DNA of 64,000 nt, from positions 1,907,203 through 1,971,202 of the forward strand of contig NZ_KV440949.1 in NCBI RefSeq assembly GCF_001636315.1. The letters are read 5' to 3'. Origin of the DNA: Neobacillus mesonae (GTDB taxonomy: Bacteria > Bacillota > Bacilli > Bacillales > Cytobacillaceae). Shown here one piece after another: positions 58,035 to 58,774 of this stretch (its first letter is position 1; every line of letters begins with the position of its first letter). Made by a program: the position numbers and the translations under genes. The notes under the pieces were generated by a model, which made no database searches, was not told the origin of the DNA, and saw only the letters and a list, made by a program, of their open reading frames with translations.

Positions 58035-58168
58035 ATCGTAAAAACAACCACTTCTATAAAACCACCCGCAAAAAAGTACAACACACAATAGGCTCAATGG
58101 GACAAAAACCCGGACATACAATAGGTATGGAATGACTTGCACATGCATGAAATGAGGTGGAATGTTCA

Positions 58169-58774
58169 ATGTCCAAGGATAGAATAGAAGATTCCCGACT
58201 TTCCTATTGTGCACTGCCTACGGAGGCGGCGCCCTTATTTACCGCAGAAGCTTACGACAAAGCGGAAAAGAAAATCAAACAGGTAAGTTTGGAGAGTTAT
58301 CGTGGAAAATGGCTGATTTTATTTTTTTATTCGAGTGATTTCACCTTTGTCTGACCGACAGAGCTGGCAGCGGTCGCTGCTATTTATGATCAGTTACGGT
58401 ATCTTAATTCGGAGGTTCTGGCGATTAGTACGGACAGTGTTTATTCCCATAAAGTATTTGCGGAGATTTCCCCATCGGTGTCAAAGGTGCAATTCCCTCT
58501 ATTAAGCGACCGGACGCAGGCGATCAGCAAGGCCTACAGGGTCTTCAATGAGAAGATCGGGGCTTCGTACAGAGCAACCGTCATCATCGACCCCGAAGGA
58601 ATTATTGCTGCCAAACTGCTATACCCGCCGGAAGTGGGACGAAATGTGTACGAGATAATGAGAATTATTCAGGGAGTCCAATATGGCAGAAGCACAGGAG
58701 AAGGGGTCCCCGCCAACTGGATCCCCGGCCAGCCCGGAATCATAAGGGATCCAAAGAATATTGGGAAAATCTAA
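58169..58774 (+). CDS. prxU: Peroxiredoxin with UGA at the peroxidatic cysteine, candidate selenoprotein PrxU
   Basis: 201 residues if UGA at 58352-58354 (residue 62) is selenocysteine. The context is YSSDFTFV-U-PTELAAVAAIYDQL, where typical 2-Cys peroxiredoxins have DFTFVCPTELAA, so the UGA replaces exactly the peroxidatic cysteine codon. The frame is otherwise open to 58774 with LAISTDSVYSHKVF, FPLLSDRTQAISKAY, RATVIIDPEG and the C-terminal end. The usual resolving-Cys motif (EVCPA) reads GEGVPANWIPGQPG, so that Cys is absent; Cys14 is the only other Cys. ATG at 58169 follows GAGGTGG at 8 nt. A SECIS-like hairpin follows the UGA. Confidence 0.87.
58367..58380 (+). promoter_or_regulatory. 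SECIS-like hairpin of prxU
   Basis: GCAGC (58367-58371), loop GGTC, GCTGC (58376-58380): five perfect pairs. The stem begins 12 nt and the loop 17 nt after the UGA. The E. coli fdhF SECIS has an apical GGUCU loop at nearly the same distance. Confidence 0.8.

Follow-up and report, generated by a model that had tools for sequence, protein, structure and literature searches.

A predicted selenocysteine-containing peroxiredoxin with a SECIS-like hairpin in Neobacillus mesonae and its relatives

A peroxiredoxin gene of Neobacillus mesonae, found in a stretch of 64,000 nucleotides (hereafter the window), very probably encodes a working selenoprotein: a member of the Prx1/AhpC group whose peroxidatic residue is selenocysteine (Sec). 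This is what the preliminary description had proposed, together with a hairpin of the GGUC-loop type, and the proposal is supported by the comparison of homologous genes, of the hairpins that follow their UGA codons, and of the genomes that carry them.

A single in-frame UGA at the peroxidatic position

The coding sequence (58169..58774, + strand) comprises 201 codons including the one for Sec, followed by TAA, and is preceded by the ribosome binding site GAGGTGG (58154-58160, +), 8 nt before the ATG. The frame has a single interruption, a TGA at 58352..58354 (+) that corresponds to residue 62 and lies in the context DFTFV-U-PTELAA; structurally characterized homologues have, at the aligned place, the Cys of the motif FTFVCPTE, which marks the peroxidatic position. 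The TGA at this Cys, the 201-codon frame, and the ribosome site had all been reported beforehand, and every coordinate was confirmed. A profile search with Pfam AhpC-TSA gave 119.4 bits (cut-off 26), and the protein possesses both the AhpC/TSA domain and the TxxU active site. Eleven orthologues from the genus are 70-89% identical and have the same frame. The orthologues, too, have purine-rich sites ahead of their starts, which were themselves chosen by such a site.

Within the genus, the gene occurs in 12 of 61 genomes, each time with exactly one TGA at the same codon, and the mean column identity over these 12 rows is 86%. At the family level, 93 of 193 genomes from 18 of 25 genera yielded 95 matches at E ≤ 1e-60, all with a TGA; 70 of these were read codon by codon and the other 25 are known only from stop counts within the match, and six of the 95 rows carry a further stop besides the one TGA. 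An order-wide draw of 397 genomes gave 54 with a match; the gene has a single TGA in 52 of these, is decayed in one (G535), and is free of stops in one (G369). Codon-level reading covered 104 rows (44 + 40 + 20), which were reduced to 90 distinct genes, here called bacillar genes, by dropping the window gene found again (L140), a decayed row (L223), and protein duplicates. The site codon is TGA in 89 of the 90 and TGT in one (L220); the 89 are referred to as the UGA genes. The preliminary description had suggested looking for alternation between Cys and UGA at this site. Free alternation is not what we found, given the one TGT among 90 distinct genes, and the homologue comparison (TGA in 12/12 genus rows and 95/95 family matches) favours a selenoprotein. 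A scan of named genomes, biased to Cys in that one of its two patterns spells FTFVCPTE, found TGA at the site in Neobacillus mesonae (71% identity), Litchfieldia alkalitelluris, and Bacillus sp. cl95 (each ~58%), and Cys in the other 77 of the best 80 of 588 relatives, all at most 45% identical.

These counts bear on the alternative that the TGA is a lesion, either a pseudogene mutation or a sequencing error, in an ordinary Cys peroxiredoxin gene. Mechanical listing of open reading frames does break the frame into pieces of 65 and 98 aa, as such a lesion would. Against it stand the presence of TGA at this very codon in 89 of 90 distinct genes whose remaining frame is intact, the high column identity of the genus rows, the scarcity of synonymous change within the hairpin described below, and the different appearance of true decay, seen in G535 with its extra stops. 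The probability left to a lesion is negligible, and for the gene as such we regard this reading as already refuted by the comparative data.

The hairpin after the UGA and the Sec machinery

Bacterial Sec decoding depends on SelB, which binds the loop of a hairpin and inserts Sec at UGA; the hairpin lies shortly past the UGA and has a G among the first two loop bases. The window gene has a SECIS-like hairpin at 58365..58382 (+), whose core (58367-58380) consists of GCAGC (58367-58371), the loop GGTC (58372-58375), and GCTGC (58376-58380); two outer pairs added by RNAfold extend the stem to 7 bp. The UGA is separated from the core stem by 12 nt and from the loop by 17 nt, which agrees with the distances given in the preliminary description and places the start of the loop 18 nt after the UGA. 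The hairpin is thus close downstream of the UGA, with a G among the first two bases of its loop, as the bacterial rule has it.

Taken as a single sequence, the window hairpin has an unremarkable folding energy (z -1.33, with 19 of 200 shuffles equally good), and a scan of 58250-58550 against Rfam returned chance matches only, the hairpin matching no Rfam family. As the folding energy is ordinary, one sequence alone is no proof of the hairpin, and the proof is supplied by comparison across genes. Folding of single hairpins was rejected as proof, as no peroxiredoxin element tried reached significance.

The hairpin core lies within codons 67-71, which encode Ala-Ala-Val-Ala-Ala. The 37 four-fold columns with the residue shared by 85% or more of the 89 UGA genes were ranked by least third-base variation, and these five codons took ranks 1-5, with entropies of 0.51-1.00 bits compared to a median of 1.76 over all 37 columns; codons 63, 64, and 61, beside the UGA, came next. 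The facing third bases of codons 67 and 70 covary, with A/T in 48, G/C in 34, G/T in 7, and A/C in none of the 89 UGA genes. All third-base changes in the stem are synonymous, so the pairing is not explained by selection on the protein. The covariation rests on few changes, as the tree needs 7 and 9 at the two stem positions and 3 in the loop, and an independent-pairs sign test is underpowered at 5 pairs (median p 0.125), none of which goes the wrong way. The loop reads GGTC in 79 and AGTT in 10 of the 89 genes, and the 14-nt hairpin string is identical in 12/12 genus copies. As the loop follows a clear rule (GGUC or AGUU), this set of 89 related hairpins should be useful for the prediction of Sec genes in Bacilli.

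The genome was searched for selA, selB, selC, and selD, as the preliminary description had advised, and all four were found, on the 5.8 Mb contig that includes the window. The selA match scores 555.7 bits (cut-off 267.9); selB scores 244.4 bits (cut-off 242.25) with its winged-helix domains present, in a locus read that is cut at the 5' end. The tRNA-Sec was detected by ARAGORN with the anticodon tca, and we rely on this anticodon for the call because the Rfam tRNA-Sec model is poorly specific, with 5 of 14 control genomes exceeding its cut-off. The selD gene (L002:7093-8145, - strand) has its own UGA in KAG-U-GCK, and beside it is a SelW-like gene (L002:8292-8531, +) with a UGA in CMM-U-NYAPKA; both are near selA and give the genome two further UGA genes besides the peroxiredoxin. 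Judged by gene content, the genome decodes UGA as Sec. In the proposed mechanism, SelD would provide selenophosphate, SelA would make Sec-tRNA(Sec), and SelB, tethered by the hairpin, would bring the charged tRNA to the ribosome, where the UGA would be read as Sec.

SelB was matched in 59 of the 61 genomes of the genus and in 170 of the 193 of the family, which contradicts the earlier statement that Sec use is uncommon in this group. The peroxiredoxin gene itself is patchy and is missing from 49 of 61 genus genomes, though SelB is nearly universal in the genus. Within the family, SelB was found in 90 of 93 genomes with the peroxiredoxin versus 80 of 100 without it (Fisher p 0.0003, uncorrected for kinship). 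The three family genomes that have the peroxiredoxin and lack SelB are G045 (720 contigs, 94% complete), G139, and G189 (each 66% complete). Similarly, SelB occurs in 40 of 41 peroxiredoxin-positive genomes of the order outside the family. The exception is G369, which combines the TGT codon at the site (L220) with a broken hairpin, GCAGC-AATG-GCCGC, and no SelB match, and can be seen as a natural experiment. In a separate group of the family (g20), SelB was matched in 0 of 12 listed genomes, and no g20 genome has the Sec peroxiredoxin; this looks like the loss of the Sec trait in one genus.

Co-occurrence with SelB also weighs on the idea that the UGA is a regulated stop that yields a short product of 61 residues, read through (as Trp, Cys, or another amino acid) only occasionally or independently of SelB. 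Low selenium would be expected to cause termination at the UGA, in keeping with such a stop. Yet the UGA falls exactly at the catalytic Cys, the hairpin is conserved and covarying, SelB accompanies the gene, and the lone Cys version sits in a genome without SelB, all of which makes a regulated stop very improbable and favours Sec insertion. Bacillus-like bacteria are spore formers that mostly live with oxygen, and a large group of them (93/193 family genomes) appears to keep a full Sec system and to put Sec in an enzyme of peroxide defence.

Other UGA-bearing relatives of peroxiredoxins were observed in the genus. A second, shorter Sec peroxiredoxin-like family with the context DFTPG-U-IKEI is found in many genus genomes, and all 10 rows read (L240-L249, from ten genus genomes) have the same CCTCTTGGAAAGAGG hairpin after the UGA; with P0001 as query, this family had no match in the window's own genome. 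A third peroxiredoxin-like family with a UGA, DWTPV-U-GAQMPSYEDD, was read in two genus genomes (L250 and L251).

Active site, reduction, and the upstream element

The sole ordinary Cys of the window protein is Cys14 (58208..58210, +). Val180 (58706..58708, +) occupies the place of the C-terminal resolving Cys of Prx1/AhpC proteins, where GEGVPANW replaces GEVCPANW. None of the 90 bacillar genes encodes a Cys in the resolving motif, which sets them apart from typical 2-Cys peroxiredoxins with their C-terminal resolving Cys; five of the 90 do have a Cys among their final 60 residues, at position +85 relative to the site and in every case outside the resolving motif. A Cys located 45-49 residues before the site is encoded by 71 of the 90 genes, and 15 of the 89 UGA rows have no Cys whatever, and on these counts we rejected the N-terminal Cys14 as a universal resolving Cys. 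In the proposed reaction, the selenolate of Sec would attack the peroxide. As there is no C-terminal resolving Cys, the resulting selenenic acid would probably be reset by an outside thiol, which may be bacillithiol, bacilliredoxin, or thioredoxin. The genome has bshC, so bacillithiol is probably available, and the N-terminal Cys could help reduction in most members.

The signature PxxxTxxC/U is called highly conserved in a review (PMC13188914). The window protein has Ser55 (58331..58333, +) at the place of the Pro and reads SxxxTxxU, and so departs from the full PxxxTxxU signature. Of the 90 bacillar genes, 48 encode Pro at the first position of the signature, 21 Ala, 14 Ser, and 7 Gly, and 1 of the 12 genus copies has Pro there; 89 of the 90 retain the Thr. 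The replaced Pro counts somewhat against reading the window protein as a plain peroxidase.

Upstream of the gene is CATACAATA (58115..58123, +), a conserved CATA-type promoter-like element. The sporulation sigma factors E, K, and G recognize -10 boxes that contain CATA, and CATACAATA may be a sporulation -10 box. CATA lies 25-90 nt before the start in 82 of the 90 genes versus 29.7 expected from shuffles, which preserve single bases only in a set of genes that are related; among controls, it was found in 1 of 18 ahpC genes of the Cys type from the genus and in 22% of random 65-nt pieces of the window. The longer -10 forms CATAYRNT and CATANNNTA occur in only 24 and 25 of the 90 genes, with shuffle means of 2.4 and 3.5, and a -35 box for sigma E or K had no convincing fit by eye upstream of the genes; both observations speak against a sporulation promoter. 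The CATA element nevertheless provides a lead that the gene may be under a mother-cell sporulation sigma factor (E or K), with a possible link between selenium and sporulation in Bacillus-like bacteria. In the segment 58087-58123, CATACAATA is preceded by AATAGGCTCAATGGGACA, which (with one base free) is found upstream of 7 of 12 genus genes, a candidate promoter or operator.

The same features can be read differently: the UGA and its hairpin could be real and the enzyme not mainly a peroxidase in the cell, where it would serve as a selenol sensor or react with other electrophiles, for instance while the cell sporulates. The missing C-terminal resolving Cys, the CATA-type element, and the replacement of the signature Pro in 42 of 90 genes, the window's among them, are compatible with such a role. 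The near-invariant signature Thr points the other way, as does the resemblance to PrxU, which is annotated as a thioredoxin-dependent peroxiredoxin. We consider a main function other than peroxide reduction unlikely and retain the reading of a peroxidase with Sec at its peroxidatic position.

Relation to known peroxiredoxins

Peroxiredoxins containing Sec (TxxU) are a listed selenoprotein family in PMC1088965, PMC9312934, and PMC13188914, the latter two of which cite Soehling et al. 2001 for the enzyme of Eubacterium acidaminophilum. Table 1 of PMC1794560 puts peroxiredoxin at 12, and the paper has a total of three selenoproteins for Bacillales; PMC5029168 gives 91 for peroxiredoxin in 78 organisms. 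Nowhere in its main text does the 2026 review PMC13188914 use the words Bacillus, Bacillales, Bacilli, or Bacillota. A literature search by titles and abstracts, mostly outside subscription journals, found no paper on a Sec peroxiredoxin in Bacillales, Bacillaceae, or Neobacillus. The kind of enzyme is already known; its bacillar branch is widespread and little described.

The window protein shares its domain family and the surroundings of its active site with the Prx1/AhpC 2-Cys peroxiredoxins (TIGR03137), although it scores 152 bits against that model (cut-off 272). It differs from this type by having Sec in place of Cys and by its C-terminus, as 74 of 76 Cys-type rows have a Cys in the last 60 residues. 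The Cys AhpC of the genus itself reads ELEDLQN at the place of the hairpin in 18 of 18 rows.

A close relative is the peroxiredoxin WP_225003809.1 of Cytobacillus spongiae, which is 65% identical and shares the TGA codon, the hairpin core, and the N-terminal Cys. Its gene (L253), unlike the window's, is located on a 690 kb plasmid record, and it is named only 'peroxiredoxin'. In the RefSeq-derived gene table it is entered as a single CDS that runs through the TGA. Public annotation thus already includes such genes, and the earlier remark that the gene is missed by standard gene calling does not hold as a general claim.

In E. coli fdhF, the SECIS element is a short stem with GGUC as its apical loop, some 18 nt downstream of the UGA. 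The window hairpin, compared at the level of sequence, has the same loop on a short stem at a similar distance past the UGA.

The best-scoring NCBIfam model for the window protein is NF040737 (peroxi_PrxU), at 167.6 bits and below the cut-off of 270. A search of 398 genomes of the phylum with this model gave matches above the cut-off in 48 genomes, and every one of these matches contains one TGA or more; additional stops occur in 8 of the 48 rows, and the PrxU rows that we read come from 25 of the 48 genomes. PrxU, as represented by prxU of Peptoclostridium (Eubacterium) acidaminophilum and NF040737, has Sec at the same site, in the context FTFVUATE. Its hairpin, TCAGC-AGTT-GCTGA, is equally distant from the UGA, with the loop AGTT in 23 and GGTC in 2 of 25 rows, and it also lacks a C-terminal resolving Cys, as none of the 25 rows has a Cys in the last 60 residues. 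These similarities bear out the likeness to PrxU claimed in the preliminary description, notwithstanding the score below the NF040737 cut-off. The two differ in that PrxU is 38-44% identical to the window protein, has a Cys at -10 in 25/25 rows (0/89 bacillar UGA rows), and keeps the signature Pro in 25/25 rows (48/90 bacillar genes).

The Cys peroxiredoxins compared comprised 76 of 77 rows (L057, which has no start, was dropped), 53 of which entered an earlier 168-row tree. That tree, made with a quick method and a simple model, has long rows and places bacillar and PrxU rows apart. A 72-row tree under a mixture model, composed of 33 Cys, 28 of 90 bacillar, and 11 of 25 PrxU rows with eight mostly long Cys rows left out, recovered the bacillar rows as one group (support 100) and PrxU as another (91), with Cys rows between them. 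Joining both Sec groups costs 5.7 log-likelihood units on the 72-row tree and is not rejected (p-AU 0.37). We tentatively entertain, as a possibility somewhat on the doubtful side, a distinct 'Sec-only' branch of the Bacillaceae, which may have acquired Sec independently of the clostridial PrxU and whose members would be one-chalcogen enzymes with a relaxed signature, reduced by outside thiols and induced in sporulation by a mother-cell sigma factor. If this were true, selenium would serve spore formation. As for the enzyme itself, its sequence indicates that the window protein functions in the manner of PrxU and belongs with it to the known Sec-peroxiredoxins, but outside NCBI's PrxU equivalog.
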